Below are positions 1 through 8,446 of a DNA stretch of 8,627 nt, in pieces. Position 1 is the first letter of the stretch. Each line of letters starts with the position of its first letter. Below the pieces are notes generated by a model, which was given only the letters and a program-made list of their open reading frames with translations, did not search any database and was not told the DNA's origin. Source of the stretch: Promethearchaeota archaeon (GTDB lineage Archaea > Asgardarchaeota > Lokiarchaeia > Sigynarchaeales > SOKP01); assembly GCA_030620005.1 (NCBI GenBank), contig JAUXAJ010000228.1, positions 1 through 8,627 of the forward strand, read 5' to 3'. The position numbers were made by a program, and so were the translations under genes.

Positions 1-212
1 TCCAATACGATTGCATTGCAACAATCGCGTGAACTTCCGCCCCATGTACGATACCATTGCTGTACACCAGAGCTATCATACTTTACCAAACACATATCAT
101 CATATCCCGCCCCGAAACTTTCTGTATAACCTGCAAGATAAATGTTGCCAGACGAATCCAATGCGATTGCTTTGCAACTATCGCTTGAACTTCCGCCCCA
201 GGTACGATCCCA
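1..212 (-). repeat. Tandem 156-bp coding repeat (SBBP units), two copies visible
   Basis: Positions 157-212 and 1-56 are near-identical at the DNA level: I count 6 mismatches in 56 bases. They are exactly 156 bp (52 codons) apart. The second unit continues beyond the window. Identity this high between neighbouring propeller blades suggests recent duplication or homogenisation. Confidence 0.8.
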
Positions 213-413
213 CTCATAAATAACTTCTTCATTAGCAGACAAAAAAGGTAATACATTAACACTTTTTTGATTGTTTTTTTCATCTATTTCATTAGATAAA
301 TCTTGATTAGTTATTTCTTGAGCATTTACGATAATTTTACTATCTTGCAATAATAAACAAAGACATAAAGTAAAAAAAGAAATTATTAGAAAAGATGTTT
401 TTAAATGTTTCAT
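1..413 (-). CDS. Secreted SBBP-repeat beta-propeller protein, N-terminal part (cut by window edge)
   Basis: I translated the complement from the ATG at 413-411. It gives 137 residues without a stop, running off the left edge, so the C-terminus is missing. Residues 1-31 look like a signal peptide: MKHLK, a hydrophobic core (about residues 7-22), and a V-N-A site before Gln32. A polar linker (32-60) follows. From about residue 67 come repeats of the SBBP type: a WDRTWGGSSSD segment, then AIALDSSGNIYLAGYTESFG, then DDMCLVKYDSSG. The next repeat begins 52 residues later (Trp68 versus Trp120). Such repeats build beta-propellers on secreted or surface proteins. The ligand cannot be told. No Shine-Dalgarno precedes the ATG; a TATA-like AAATATTA on the minus strand lies about 22 nt upstream, which suits a leaderless message. 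Gene and fold class are fairly sure; the role is unknown. Confidence 0.85.
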   Translation of the reverse strand, partial: MKHLKTSFLIISFFTLCLCLLLQDSKIIVNAQEITNQDLSNEIDEKNNQKSVNVLPFLSANEEVIYEWDRTWGGSSSDSCKAIALDSSGNIYLAGYTESFGAGYDDMCLVKYDSSGVQQWYRTWGGSSRDCCNAIVL

Positions 414-887
414 TTTTGAATCAAATGTGTAATATTTTTGTCATTTAATTTAATTATTAATTATTGTATTTAAATATAAATATTAAAAAATGCAAAAGCA
501 AAAATAATGAAATGTGGTCCTCTCATAGATTTGCAAAGAATAATCTTTGCACAAATTATATTTTGGATTAAATGTATCTCCCAAAAAGAGAATTTCTCAA
601 TTAAGCTTAGTTATTTTTAAAAAGATTTTACATTTTCTAATATTTTAACTAAGCAATATATGAAATAAATTCTAATTGTCTTATCTAATTACCATTTTTC
701 CGTTATTAGGTCTCTCATCTCTAAAAATATATAATATCAAAAAGATTCTGTTAAGAGTCTCCAAGTTCCATCCATTACTTTTTTTAAGGATTTATTTTAC
801 CAATATAATTCAATATTTATTTCAACCTTATTTAAATAAGATTTTTATAGATTAAAGATAATATTAATATAATATTTCTTAAAGAAT
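414..887. other. AT-rich intergenic region, no gene seen
   Basis: This stretch separates divergently oriented genes (minus-strand propeller gene, plus-strand Fe-S gene). It is strongly AT-rich with stops in all frames at short intervals. I see no convincing coding region, tRNA or known RNA. It must hold the promoter of the propeller gene near its left end, and it contains one perfect hairpin at 532-551. The rest shows nothing I can name. Confidence 0.6.
532..551. repeat. Perfect 8-bp inverted repeat with 4-nt loop
   Basis: TGCAAAGA (532-539), loop ATAA, TCTTTGCA (544-551). All eight pairs are Watson-Crick. No T-tract follows on either strand, so it is not an obvious terminator; it lies about 120 bp upstream of the minus-strand propeller gene. 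It could be an operator or a small RNA hairpin. Function is unknown. Confidence 0.55.
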
Positions 888-900
888 ATTTTTAATTAAA
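888..900 (+). promoter_or_regulatory. Likely TATA box of the Fe-S protein gene
   Basis: ATTTTTAATTAAA lies about 20-26 nt before the ATG at 914, the archaeal spacing from TATA box to transcription start. There is no Shine-Dalgarno between them. This supports a leaderless transcript starting at or next to ATG 914, and argues independently that 914 rather than 1071 is the gene's start. The region is AT-rich, so a chance match is possible. Confidence 0.5.
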
Positions 901-913
901 TAGCCTTACTACT

Positions 914-2255
914 ATGTTAAACGATAAAGATTACTCGAATATGATTAAGCGGTGTTTAAGATGCTCGATAGGTCATTAGTTCTTTTAGCTAGTTACCCGA
1001 GAATTGTAAGTGGATTCCGCAGGTTCAGATCAAATCCCAAAAGTATGCTACCATTTGTCCCTCAATAGATATGTATAATTTTCACACATACAGCGGAGGG
1101 GGCAAGATAATACTAGCTTTAGCGTTAGAGATGGACAGGATCAAGCCTTCAGAAGAATTGCGAGATGTAGTTTACAAATGTACTGAATGCGGGGGGTGTG
1201 CTGTAACATGTAAATATTTGAATACACTAGAGCCGTTAGAAATTATCATGAGGCTAAGGGAAAGGTTAGTGGAAGCTGGTGTGGGTCCAATGCCAAAACA
1301 ACAACAATATATAGAATATGTCAAGAAGGTCAACAATCCTTACAACGAATCTCACCAGAAGCGATTTGGTTGGTTACCTGCTGATATTCAAGTCGATCCC
1401 GACGCTAAAGTACTGTTTTATATTGGATGTACCGCGTCCTATAGAAGAAAAGAAATGGCTCTTGCTGCGGCTCGGATAATGAATGCCGCTGGAGTTCCCT
1501 TTAGAATATTGGAGGACGATGAGTACTGTTGTGGGAGCCCCATCTTAAGAACTGGCGATATTGGAACATTTACGGAGCTGCTCAATAAAAATATAGATGT
1601 TGTTGAAGCAAAAGGAATTGAGACGATGGTTTTTTGTTGCGCGGGTTGTTACGATACTTTCAAAGTAGATTATCCATTGTATAGGAAATTTAATTTTAAA
1701 GTGCTTCACATTGTTGAATTTTTTGAAGAATTAATCGAAAGTGGACAATTGCAACTGTCAAATAAAGTTCCATTAACAGTTACATACCACGATCCTTGTC
1801 ATTTAGGGAGAAATGCTGAGCGATATGAAGAATGGGACGGCGACGAGGTACCTATCATGCCCTTAATCTCAATAAATGTTCCACCAAAACCTAAGAGGTG
1901 CGGAACATTTGGAATTTACGACGCTCCAAGAAACATTTTAAATAAAATTCCCGGTTTAAAACTCGTTGAAATGGAAAGAATCAAAGAGTATGCATATTGC
2001 TGTGGTGCTGGTGCAGGTGTAAAATCAGCATTTCCAAATTTCGCGCTTCAAACGGCCAAAAATAGAATGGAAGAAGCCGAAGATACTGGCGCTGAAGTCA
2101 TAGTTTCTGCCTGTCCATTTTGTTCCACGAATTTACAAGATGCTATAGCAGAAAGCGGTTCAAGACTAATATTTTACGATATAAGTGAGTTGATATTAAT
2201 GGCCTTAGGAATGGATTTAAAAAAAGTGAAAGGTAAAGCAAAGGAGGTCGCTTGA
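914..2255 (+). CDS. Two-cluster [4Fe-4S] / CCG-domain oxidoreductase subunit (GlcF/HdrD-like), interrupted by a putative BHB intron
   Basis: Read as 914-969 joined to 1004-2255 this gives 435 residues. Exon 1 encodes MLNDKDYSNMIKRCLRCS; the junction codon is ATT (Ile19); exon 2 continues CKWIPQVQIKS. First ferredoxin-type cluster: C14, C17, C20, then C37 before Pro38. Second: C78, C81, C84, C88 (YKCTECGGCAVTC). First CCG domain: C161, C194-C195-G, C231-x2-C234 (spacing 32 and 34). Second: C284 (YHDPCHLGR), C351-C352-G, C389-x2-C392. Such proteins carry electrons between an FAD partner and a further acceptor, as in GlcF, LutA or HdrD. The second CCG domain holds an extra segment of roughly 30 residues after HLGR, including C318. 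If the insert were not spliced, translation from 914 would stop at TAG 977 and only a 394-residue form from ATG 1071, lacking cluster 1 cysteines, could be made. The stop overlaps the ribosome-binding site region of the FAD partner gene. Family certain; substrate unknown. Confidence 0.88.
970..1003 (+). other. Putative 34-nt archaeal BHB-type intron in a protein-coding gene
   Basis: Central helix: CTCG 964-967 pairs with CGAG 998-1001, exactly 4 bp. Bulges: ATA 968-970 and AAT 1002-1004, 3 nt each on opposite strands. Inner hairpin: 971-973 with 995-997, a C974/T994 mismatch, then 975-979 with 989-993 (one wobble pair), loop 980-988. The splicing endonuclease cuts between bulge bases 2 and 3, giving cuts after 969 and after 1003. 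Joining restores TCG ATT TGT AAG TGG (S-I-C-K-W), completing the C-x2-C-x2-C motif. The outer exon helix is weak next to the bulges (963, 962, 961 with 1005, 1006, 1007: two wobbles and one A-U); a stronger GCGG 949-952 / CCGC 1017-1020 lies beyond. So the motif is a relaxed rather than ideal BHB. Inferred from sequence; splicing itself is not shown. Confidence 0.83.
2242..2248 (+). promoter_or_regulatory. Strong Shine-Dalgarno for the FAD oxidase gene
   Basis: AGGAGGT ends 10 nt before ATG 2259 and lies inside the last codons of the Fe-S protein gene (stop 2253-2255). It fixes the start of the FAD gene and indicates co-transcription and translational coupling of the two subunits. Confidence 0.8.
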
Positions 2256-2258
2256 ACA

Positions 2259-3815
2259 ATGTTAAAAAATGAAATTTACATAGAATTTGAAAGTATCGTT
2301 GGTCCTGAGAATATTAACGATGGAGCAGTGGTCACTGAATGTTACGCGTATAACTGGTGCCAAGAGATATTCAATTTCATGAACGATAAGCCTCCGATCC
2401 CTTTTTCTGACGTTCCTAAAGCGGTCATTTTACCTTCAACTACAGAAGAGGTTCTAAAAATCGTTAAGTCATGCAACAAGTACAATATTAAATTTAAAGC
2501 CCAATCAACAGGATTAGGACCATGGAATCAACCTTCAACGGATAATTCCATAATTTTAGATTTGCGCCGCATGAATAAAATAATCAAAATTGACGAAAAA
2601 AATCTGTACGCAGTTGTAGAACCATATGTGAGCGGAGCGCAATTACAAGTTGAAACCATGAAATTCGGGTTGAACTGTCACATGCCGGGTGCAGGTCCAA
2701 TGGCTTCGCCTCTCGCAAGTTCAACGTCAATGAACGGTCCTGGCTTTACTTCTCCCCATACGGGGCACAGCGCTAGAAATGTTTTGGGGATTGAGTGGGT
2801 ATTACCAACTGGCGAATTGATGCAATTAGGATCTCTCGGTCTAAAAAATAATCCCGATTGGTACAGTGGTGATGGGCCAGGTCCCAGTTTAAGAGGAATC
2901 ATGCGAGGCTGGGCAGGTACGAAATCTGGTCTGGGAGTGTTTACTAAAGTCGCAGTTAAACTCTTTCCCTATCCTTGTAGTACGGATTTTAATGTAAAAG
3001 GTAACTCTCCGAATTACGGATTTGACATTCCAGACTTCATTAGGGTTTATACAATGGATTGCGGGAATTTTAAACACTTAGAAGAAGCGATGTTACGAAT
3101 TGAAGAAGAAGAAATAACCTTCATGTGCAGTTACTTGTCTGGTCTTGCTGTAATGGCGATTTTTTCTAATAGCATAGAAAGTTTAATGGATAAGATGGCA
3201 TTAGGGAGCATGAGAACACCTTTAGTCGTAATAATAGCAGCAAGAACACAGCGAGAATTCAATTACAAGCAAAAAGTAATGGACAGTTTAATGGAAGAAC
3301 TAAAATTAAAAGATATTATAGGAACTAGTTTTACGCCGGAATCAATATTTTACGCAGAAGCCTTGCGCTCGAATCTCGGAATTCACGGTTTTATAGCCAC
3401 GGGTGGTTTTCAAAGTACTAAAGGAGTATGTGATTCAGCAAAAGTTTGTCTTTTAAGCGCAAGGGAAAACATTCCAATAAAACAAAAATACATCGAGAGG
3501 GGTGCGATTGCGAACGATTTTGGTGAAGGCGCTTGGATGACGAGTTATGAAGGAGGACACTTTTACCATTTTGAAGCTCCGACAATGTTCGATCAGACCA
3601 ATGAACAGAGCGTAGAAGGCATGGCGGAATACATGGAATTAAGCAATAAGTTAGATCTTGTCAAGCATCTCGGCGCGCCGTTTTTCGTGGAAGGCGATAA
3701 GAACCATGAACTTTTCGGTCCATACATGATGAATTATCATTTATGGTTAAGAAAGATAAAAAAAGCTTTTGATCCTAACAATGTGTCTGATTCTGGTTTT
3801 TACATTTCTCCTTAG
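2259..3815 (+). CDS. FAD-binding (PCMH/VAO-type) oxidase, GlcD-like catalytic partner of the Fe-S protein
   Basis: 518 residues, near the usual 450-550 for this family. The N-terminal FAD_binding_4 domain spans about residues 50-240: KAVILPSTTEEVLKIVKSCN (54-73) opens it; STGLGPWNQ (83-91) fills the place of the first FAD-pyrophosphate loop; SMNGPGFTSPHTGHSARNVL (157-176) is the second FAD-contacting stretch; EWVLPTGE (179-186) and WAGTKSGLGVFTKVAVKLFP (218-237) follow the usual order. The C-terminal FAD-oxidase domain ends in the family hallmark KKAFDPNNVSDSG. Relatives oxidise 2-hydroxyacids (glycolate, D-lactate), phenolic alcohols or alkyl-DHAP; the binding pocket cannot be read well enough to choose. 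No signal peptide or membrane segment, so likely cytoplasmic. It starts 3 nt after the Fe-S gene's stop, so the two probably form one enzyme, the Fe-S subunit taking electrons from FADH2. Confidence 0.88.
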   Translation: MLKNEIYIEFESIVGPENINDGAVVTECYAYNWCQEIFNFMNDKPPIPFSDVPKAVILPSTTEEVLKIVKSCNKYNIKFKAQSTGLGPWNQPSTDNSIILDLRRMNKIIKIDEKNLYAVVEPYVSGAQLQVETMKFGLNCHMPGAGPMASPLASSTSMNGPGFTSPHTGHSARNVLGIEWVLPTGELMQLGSLGLKNNPDWYSGDGPGPSLRGIMRGWAGTKSGLGVFTKVAVKLFPYPCSTDFNVKGNSPNYGFDIPDFIRVYTMDCGNFKHLEEAMLRIEEEEITFMCSYLSGLAVMAIFSNSIESLMDKMALGSMRTPLVVIIAARTQREFNYKQKVMDSLMEELKLKDIIGTSFTPESIFYAEALRSNLGIHGFIATGGFQSTKGVCDSAKVCLLSARENIPIKQKYIERGAIANDFGEGAWMTSYEGGHFYHFEAPTMFDQTNEQSVEGMAEYMELSNKLDLVKHLGAPFFVEGDKNHELFGPYMMNYHLWLRKIKKAFDPNNVSDSGFYISP

Positions 3816-7681: not shown

Positions 7682-8446
7682 TCATACAGGTTTGATTACT
7701 TTTTTCTCTTCTAAAGCTTTCTTTTCAAATAACCTTTTTTTCAATTTAGTCGTTCCTTTTTCCATGTCATATTCCACGAGTCCAACTTTATCCAATTCTT
7801 GAATGGATCGTAAAACAAAAGCTCCGCCAATACCCGTGGTTTTTTTTATTTCTTCACGTGTCATTACCTCTTTCTCACCGTGCAAGCAAAGTAAAATTCT
7901 GTAATGAGGTTGACCTTGAAATATCTTTTCGATTAAAACCGAATAGATTGACAACAAAGCTTGAATCCTCTCGAAATTAAACTCAACTTCCTCAGCATCT
8001 GCTGCAGCTTGAGCAAATTTTTTTAAATCTACTTTGAGTTTTTCGTATTCGTCTAATAATTTCATTTGTTCTTCTGTCATTGCTCCAATTTTTTTGTCTC
8101 TCTCTTTCTTGTCCTTCTCTAATTTTTTTGTCTCACCTTCTAATTTCTTTTTATCTTGCTCCAGTTGCGTTTTTTCTTGTTCTAGTTGAGTTTTTTCCTG
8201 TTCAAGTTGAGACGTTTCTTGCTCGAGTTGTTTTTTTTCAGTTTCTAATTTATGTTTTTCTCCTTCTAATTGTTCTTTTTCACCTTCTAATAGTTGCGCT
8301 TCATTACCCAACTTGCTTTTATCTTTTTCTAACAAAATTAACTCTGACTTAGCTTTCCCCAAAACCTCGCTAAATTGATCAAATATATCTTTTACGGTAT
8401 CTAGGGTCTCATCAATGACCTTCAAGGTATTTTTTTCTTCAGACAT
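7682..8446 (-). CDS. Heptad-repeat coiled-coil protein with C-terminal winged-helix-like domain
   Basis: 254 residues, very rich in Glu, Lys, Leu and Gln. Residues 1-45 are helical and acidic. Leucines recur exactly every seven residues at 53, 60, 67, 74, 81, 88, 95, 102 and 109, within units such as LEQEKTQ, so a long parallel coiled coil is expected over about 35-145. An Ala-rich link (AQAAADAEEVEFNFER, 145-160) leads to a helix and then a winged-helix-like region (about 181-240): YRILLCLHG, an EEIKKTTGIGGAFVLRSIQE recognition-helix segment (198-217), and a wing LVEYDMEKGTTKLKKRL. This resembles archaeal transcription-factor or ArsR/MarR-type DNA-binding folds. It could be a multimeric DNA-binding or chromosome-structuring protein, or a scaffold; the repeats carry no function of their own. 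GGTG lies about 7 nt upstream of the ATG. I recognise no named family. Confidence 0.82.
   Translation of the reverse strand: MSEEKNTLKVIDETLDTVKDIFDQFSEVLGKAKSELILLEKDKSKLGNEAQLLEGEKEQLEGEKHKLETEKKQLEQETSQLEQEKTQLEQEKTQLEQDKKKLEGETKKLEKDKKERDKKIGAMTEEQMKLLDEYEKLKVDLKKFAQAAADAEEVEFNFERIQALLSIYSVLIEKIFQGQPHYRILLCLHGEKEVMTREEIKKTTGIGGAFVLRSIQELDKVGLVEYDMEKGTTKLKKRLFEKKALEEKKVIKPV
8120..8290 (-). repeat. 21-bp tandem coding repeats (heptads)
   Basis: The segment encoding leucines 53 to 109 is built of imperfect 21-bp units, each coding one heptad of the L-E-x-E-K/T-x-x kind. Neighbouring units such as LEQEKTQ LEQEKTQ LEQDKKK are nearly identical, which indicates growth by unit duplication, with copy number likely to vary between relatives. 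Confidence 0.7.

Follow-up and report, generated by a model that had tools for sequence, protein, structure and literature searches.

How can a gene whose reading frame is broken inside its first cysteine motif still encode a complete Fe-S protein? The question is raised by the window, the whole stretch of 8,627 nt analysed here, where translation from ATG 914 gives MLNDKDYSNMIKRCLRCSIGH before a TAG at 977-979, and a second open frame, LPENCKWIPQ..., begins at 993. Removal of 34 nt (970-1003), a length that is no multiple of three, gives one 435-aa frame ending at 2255; the joined product of 914-969 and 1004-2255 is a stop-free Fe-S protein of the CCG type. A preliminary description of this DNA had reported the upstream frame with its RCLRCS, the stop at 977, the continuation from 993 and the joining of the two frames by this removal, and our translations agree with it on each of these points.

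The joined protein and its surroundings

The features of the locus are collected in Table 1. It had been expected that an automatic annotation would start the protein at 1071, and this is what is seen in the database protein P0001. With the Fer4_8 profile (cut-off 27 bits) the joined protein scores 30.7, above the cut-off, and the form from Met 1071 scores 21.7, below it. Five of the nine codons of exon 1 that precede the junction vary among carriers of the insert, three of these silently only; since the changes are mostly silent, they indicate that exon 1 of the Fe-S gene is still under selection.

Two other kinds of element were set aside. A group I or group II intron was rejected because no Rfam match to either was obtained at the gathering score in the window or in loci L076, L077, L134 and L124, and an intein because the 34-nt insert breaks the frame and the 30-nt inserts found in EF-2 genes (see below) contain stops.

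Table 1. Positions in the window of the split gene, its predicted intron and the neighbouring features.
Feature	Position	Strand	Remark
Start of beta-propeller repeat (SBBP) protein	3..413	-	runs off the window
Non-coding stretch 5' of exon 1	414..913	.	no trace here of the nuclease unit of G115/G140
Exon 1, Fe-S protein gene (MLNDKDYSNMIKRCLRCS + 2 nt of Ile codon)	914..969	+	translation, homologous N-termini
BHB central helix, 5' strand CTCG	964..967	+	pairs with 998-1001
5' bulge ATA	968..970	+	predicted cut 969/970
34-nt BHB intron, splicing predicted	970..1003	+	frame, fold, inserts of 31 or 34 nt at this site in seven further genomes
Inner hairpin of intron	971..997	+	changed yet paired in other carriers
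BHB central helix, 3' strand CGAG	998..1001	+	pairs with 964-967
3' bulge AAT	1002..1004	+	predicted cut 1003/1004
Exon 2, Fe-S protein gene: remainder of first Cys motif, second Cys motif, CCG domains	1004..2255	+	
394-aa form of automatic annotation, lacking the first cysteine motif	1071..2255	+	P0001
FAD-linked oxidase gene (FAD2)	2259..3815	+	constant 3' partner of the Fe-S gene in relatives examined

The insert folds as a relaxed bulge-helix-bulge motif

The 34 nt and their borders can be folded as a bulge-helix-bulge (BHB). The 4-bp helix between two 3-nt bulges that had been described is present; the hairpin on top of it is also present, with 10 pairs (3 bp and 7 bp, separated by a 1x1 mismatch) in place of the eight previously counted. 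Cuts after the second base of each bulge remove exactly 970-1003, so that the canonical BHB cuts are the frame-restoring cuts, and the earlier claim that protein frame and RNA fold name the same sites is borne out. When the insert was shuffled, 4 of 20,000 shuffles matched the quality of the window motif in any register tried. The outer helix (961-963/1005-1007) consists of G-U, U-G and A-U pairs only, as the preliminary description had anticipated in calling it weak; the minimum-energy fold of 955-1013 closes this outer part in another way, and the plain folding energy of three stretches is ordinary (z of -1.83, -1.31 and -0.36). On account of the weak outer helix and the ordinary overall folding energy, the window motif is a relaxed BHB.

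Inserts at the same codon in related genomes

Relatives of the Fe-S gene were collected by one genome search, which gave 15 loci (14 from Lokiarchaeota/Lokiarchaeia, one from Thorarchaeota), and by a phylum-wide search, in which 136 of 227 genomes had a family match. The cysteine motif is uninterrupted in 49 of the 62 DNA rows of the family, some genomes contributing more than one row; three of these 49 were judged by eye because the search motif missed them. A frame-breaking insert of 31 or 34 nt with a BHB-like fold is found at the same codon in 13 rows from eight genomes, the window included. Such an alignment of homologues had been suggested as a check on the intron, and it is clear that uninterrupted and interrupted forms of the same motif both occur. 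Proteins starting at the equivalent of Met 1071, which had been named as evidence that would speak against an intron, were absent among the 17 homologues aligned out of 120 listed: 13 span the motif and 4 start just before CKW. One database protein, P0086 (MALLSEKCKW), is exactly the G115/G118 intron read through; P0052, P0054 and P0055 resemble it, as judged on protein sequence alone.

The seven other carriers, all of them Promethearchaeal, are G001, G002 and G003, which belong to Lokiarchaeia or Lokiarchaeota, and G115, G118, G140 and G144. Shuffles reaching the observed motif numbered, per 20,000, 0 for G003, 7 for G118, 19 for G115, 40 for G144, 161 for G001, 215 for G002 and 2,615 for G140. 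In G140 a U-U mismatch interrupts the central helix, and the best 4-bp register of the insert differs from the one that restores the frame; this was counted against the motif. In G001 and G002 the central helix (TCGA/TCGG) lies one base further on and the cut moves along with it; because the cut shifts with the helix, the product stays S-I-C-K. These two genomes were left out of the covariation analysis, as was G115, whose insert is that of G118. In the five remaining rows, which share one register, 95.6% of cells pair, compared to 22-44% when the register is slid, and two pairs are compensated.

Four carrier loci (L049, L050, L056 and L060) have the conserved LSEDEY N-terminus with no ATG, GTG or TTG at its start, and their translation may use the ATG of MIKRC, further downstream, instead. 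In G002 there are two tandem FeS-FAD2 cassettes (L068/L082), the first intron-free and the second intron-bearing.

Scatter on the tree and exchange of the 5' tract

A protein tree of exon 2 was built from 46 rows with eight carriers, 16 of the 62 rows being left out as duplicates or distant paralogues. Intron presence needs seven changes on this tree, at least five of them on well-supported branches, and the carriers cluster no more than by chance (209 of 500 label shuffles were as low). Exon 2 of G118, which has the intron, is 96-99% identical in DNA to that of G116, which has none; their upstream stretches are unlike each other and exon 1 differs. Conversely, G118/G115, G140 and G144 are alike in upstream sequence, exon 1 and intron, with exon 2 only ~72-84% identical. 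These comparisons indicate that the 5' tract is exchanged among Fe-S alleles.

The borders of such a tract can be followed between G115 and G140. Identity is ~68% in the first oxidase gene (FAD1) and ~90% from the stop codon of the nuclease unit described below onward; it reaches 94% in the 100-nt bin that holds exon 1 and the intron, falls to 82% in the next bin and then to ~74-75%. Around 170 nt lying 5' of exon 1 are present in G115 and absent in G140. The tract, from the unit to just past the intron, appears homing-like, and it is in this one genome pair that a co-conversion tract running from nuclease gene through intron to exon is found.

A two-gene unit with a predicted nuclease adjoins some split genes

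At the intron-free loci examined the Fe-S gene lies directly behind FAD1. In G115 and G140, ~4 kb separate FAD1 from exon 1 and carry two overlapping opposite-strand genes, the smaller encoding 206-208 and the larger 983-984 residues. In the large G115 protein a 181-residue piece matches GIY-YIG at 24.7 bits (cut-off 22.6); in the full-length G115 and G140 proteins Pfam found no GIY-YIG, the matches being to helix-turn-helix domains only, and the G140 copy gave none even at E 10. PDB sequence searches with both unit proteins returned nothing useful, and PADLOC and NCBIfam gave weak helix-turn-helix-like matches only. The unit is found in several states of completeness: G118 keeps only the two ends of the ~4-kb insertion, with most of the unit deleted and the intron retained; in G003, 119 nt of the large gene are left; in G152 a related unit lies behind FAD1 on a contig that ends inside it; and no trace of the unit was found upstream of the Fe-S gene in the window, G001 or G002.

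The first 300 residues of the large protein were matched at no fewer than 52 places in 21 of 227 genomes, at most the best ten candidates per genome being scored. Pfam labels among 36 database relatives of the large protein include PF14528 (LAGLIDADG_3), PF01541 (GIY-YIG) and PF13392, which we take to be HNH_3. A nuclease label was obtained for 2 of 10 other unit C-termini, one of them just under the cut-off; the unit adjoining EF-2 in G137 matches LAGLIDADG_3 at 28.2 bits (cut-off 22.5).

Twenty-two units, made up of 20 loci together with G115 and G140 (or, by place, of 20 of the 52 places and the partial units G152:C220 and G002:C4), were examined for a split neighbour. Eight directly precede exon 1 of a split gene: those of the Fe-S gene in G115 and G140, and six others at zinc alcohol dehydrogenase (ADH; G118, G140), EF-2 (G137), Mg-chelatase (G002, G131) and AAA_5/AAA_3 ATPase (G131) genes. 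The window has no such unit beside its exon. At 13 of the 22 (L118-L123, L126, L128, L129, L132, L133, L135 and L136) no split neighbour was found, where relaxed motifs may have escaped. The units of L121-L123 (G149, G146 and G124) are 50-58% identical in their N-terminal parts and stand beside a coiled-coil gene resembling 7682-8446 of the window; two of the three are 3' of an FAD2 gene, with no split gene seen.

Probable mini-introns in other protein genes

Altogether ten insertion sites were found in six gene families (FeS, EF-2, ADH, Mg-chelatase, AAA ATPase and aIF5B-like), with inserts of 29-34 nt; the families were reached via the nuclease units or the window's Fe-S gene, and as a sample they are biased. 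Labels like P-loop, zinc site and MoxR, where they are applied to the split sites or genes, are our assumption. In EF-2, at least 14 of 169 genomes have an insert, with one EF-2 match each in the tally. Among the matches listed, eleven inserts are at MTDSD^DEEQ, three at AH^IDHGKTT (one genome having both) and one at HIDHG^KTT. At least 7 of 34 ADH genomes are carriers, five at RCGI^CGSD, one at CGSD^VH and two at AQ^GHSGHG (one genome shared), and at least 7 of 152 for Mg-chelatase, at NPE^EGEL. The aIF5B-like GTPase gene of G117 (L227, minus strand, ~6.9 kb) carries a 30-nt insert at HIDHG^KTT, the place equivalent to the EF-2 split in G108.

In 13 alleles, a set without the Mg-chelatase genes of G149 and G139, the best-scoring structure of each placed the cuts that restore the motif behind the second base of both bulges, by a score that favours standard bulges and cuts. 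Within this set, two alleles form 3 of the 4 central-helix pairs, and five have a 5' bulge of only 2 nt. Some ADH and Mg-chelatase alleles, in which the central helix has only 2-3 of its 4 pairs or a bulge measures 2 nt, were counted against the motif; the central pairs in ADH number 2 in G132, 3 in three genomes and 4 in G118. Ten EF-2 inserts, G128 being omitted as identical to G114 over the stretch, covary with a score of 0.239 compared to a shuffled mean of 0.118 (0 of 500 shuffles), and for five EF-2 inserts the shuffles reaching the motif were 0, 0, 0, 0 and 1 per 20,000.

A de novo scan for BHB-split genes over 1.2 Mb of G002:C6 gave 825 raw hits versus 1,822 with a mock pairing rule, no excess, and 7 versus 20 under strict filters. 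Since the scan did not discriminate, no number of introns per genome is given.

Splicing machinery

The preliminary description had proposed to look for splicing endonuclease genes and their type. Such genes are present in all six relatives searched, and RtcB in five of the six, the one in which it was not found being G001. Two kinds of endonuclease subunit are seen, one with Tyr, His (in LEHS) and Lys and the other without the His; we assigned these catalytic residues by eye, following the familiar motifs of the enzyme. Both kinds occur in G003, G005 and G006; the non-catalytic-looking subunit was not found in G001, nor the catalytic one in G002 or G004. We read the endonuclease of these relatives as the hetero-oligomeric type, a type which PMC2738675 links to relaxed BHB motifs in pre-mRNA. 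On the 1.2-Mb contig G002:C6 (L252-L311) ARAGORN predicts three tRNAs, every one of them intron-bearing.

Discussion

We consider it probable that 970-1003 is a BHB mini-intron, likely to be excised from the mRNA by the tRNA-splicing endonuclease, and that within the Asgard set such introns were probably spread by adjoining free-standing homing endonucleases. Excision from the mRNA is likely because the insert has the fold that marks archaeal tRNA introns. The endonuclease would cut both bulges of the pre-mRNA and RtcB would presumably join the exons, giving the full-length protein. Alleles without the intron would be cut by the nuclease of the unit at the insertion site, which is conserved; the intron would split this target, so that an intron-bearing allele would be protected, and with a carrier as the repair template the unit, exon 1 and the intron would be copied as one, as in collaborative homing. 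Loss of the unit would leave a bare intron, in G118 and perhaps in the window, whose allele may have lost the unit or have received the intron without it. The window would still fit this scheme, since G118 keeps its intron after most of the unit has been deleted.

Alternatively, the BHB introns may be real and spliced while the units are bystanders that favour the same neighbourhoods, spread and persistence being due to ordinary recombination or differential loss. It is true that most carriers, the window included, have no unit within the stretch fetched, that the majority of the units examined show no split neighbour and that the nuclease activity and target of the units are predicted only. 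However, the placing of eight units directly 5' of exon 1 in five families, and a tract of raised identity that runs from the unit to a point just past the intron, make this explanation unlikely.

A ribosome that bypasses or frameshifts over the hairpin could in principle translate the unspliced message, and the gap does contain a hairpin. Yet it contains more than this, namely a BHB with its cuts at the right bases, and the relatives possess the splicing endonuclease. Furthermore, inserts at one and the same site differ in length modulo 3 (29 and 30 nt in ADH, 30 and 32 nt in Mg-chelatase), which fits excision and not stop read-through. Bypassing therefore appears very improbable.

It is just as hard to believe that the upstream piece is dead and that the protein starts at Met 1071 or within the insert, as database forms of 394 aa and 423-426 aa would have it. 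Half of the first cysteine motif is missing from such short forms, the changes in the conserved exon 1 are mostly silent, and in at least 14 genomes the only detected EF-2 gene, which contains an in-frame stop, would lose the start of its GTPase. An assembly or sequencing artefact, which might be feared from the metagenome-derived contigs of the window and its relatives, has a negligible probability in view of inserts in eight genomes at one site and at ten sites in six families, the paired changes, and the fact that some inserts lie on contigs as long as 1.28 Mb (G002) and 2.27 Mb (G123).

Returning to excision and homing, a wider proposal, in which we have moderate confidence, is that Lokiarchaeia and their relatives harbour an undescribed mobile system. 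Gene-less BHB introns of ~30 nt would parasitise the host tRNA-splicing endonuclease from within active-site motifs of essential genes (EF-2, aIF5B, Mg-chelatase, AAA ATPase, zinc dehydrogenase and Fe-S oxidoreductase). Each would owe its spread to a free-standing nuclease unit of two genes, in which a shared N-terminal domain is combined with exchangeable heads of the GIY-YIG, LAGLIDADG or HNH type. If this is true, these archaea, which are related to the eukaryotic host lineage, have interrupted protein genes as a matter of course, and many of their genomes contain wrong gene predictions, for EF-2 among others; the stop codons at which annotation truncates EF-2 and other universal genes would be explained. 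It would also show how, in the archaea closest to eukaryotes, protein-gene introns can spread with no spliceosome involved.

In the literature found, cbf5 of Crenarchaeota is the only archaeal mRNA with a BHB intron whose splicing is proven: PMC7714728 (2020) names cbf5 as the only additional BHB intron reported in archaeal mRNA, and PMC2738675 mentions further putative, unconfirmed BHB introns, both in an archaeal virus and in protein genes other than cbf5. No report of BHB introns in Asgard protein genes was found at the level of titles and the beginnings of abstracts, in a search with most subscription journals and bioRxiv outside its scope. Ten sites in six Asgard protein families would change this cbf5-only picture. 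The cbf5 pre-mRNA intron resembles the present inserts in being a short BHB-like intron of an archaeal protein gene with a relaxed motif, in its cuts between the second and third bulge base, in its gain and loss between relatives and in the hetero-oligomeric splicing endonuclease (PMC2738675). Unlike cbf5, the Asgard inserts belong to another phylum, other genes and many sites, and have a nuclease unit beside some copies.

The homing endonucleases of archaeal rRNA introns are of the LAGLIDADG type. Those mobile introns, with their internal homing endonuclease genes (PMC6125680), share with the Asgard case a BHB intron tied to a homing-type nuclease; the Asgard hosts, in contrast, are protein genes, the intron is ~30 nt long and gene-less, and the predicted nuclease lies outside the intron and varies in its nuclease domains. 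The collaborative homing of phage group I introns differs in that the Asgard intron is not self-splicing, its host is archaeal and its nuclease is predicted from sequence. What the phage (PMC10448857, PMC2988022) and Asgard cases have in common is a free-standing nuclease gene beside the N-terminal exon, a conserved target and an exchange tract that spans nuclease gene and intron.
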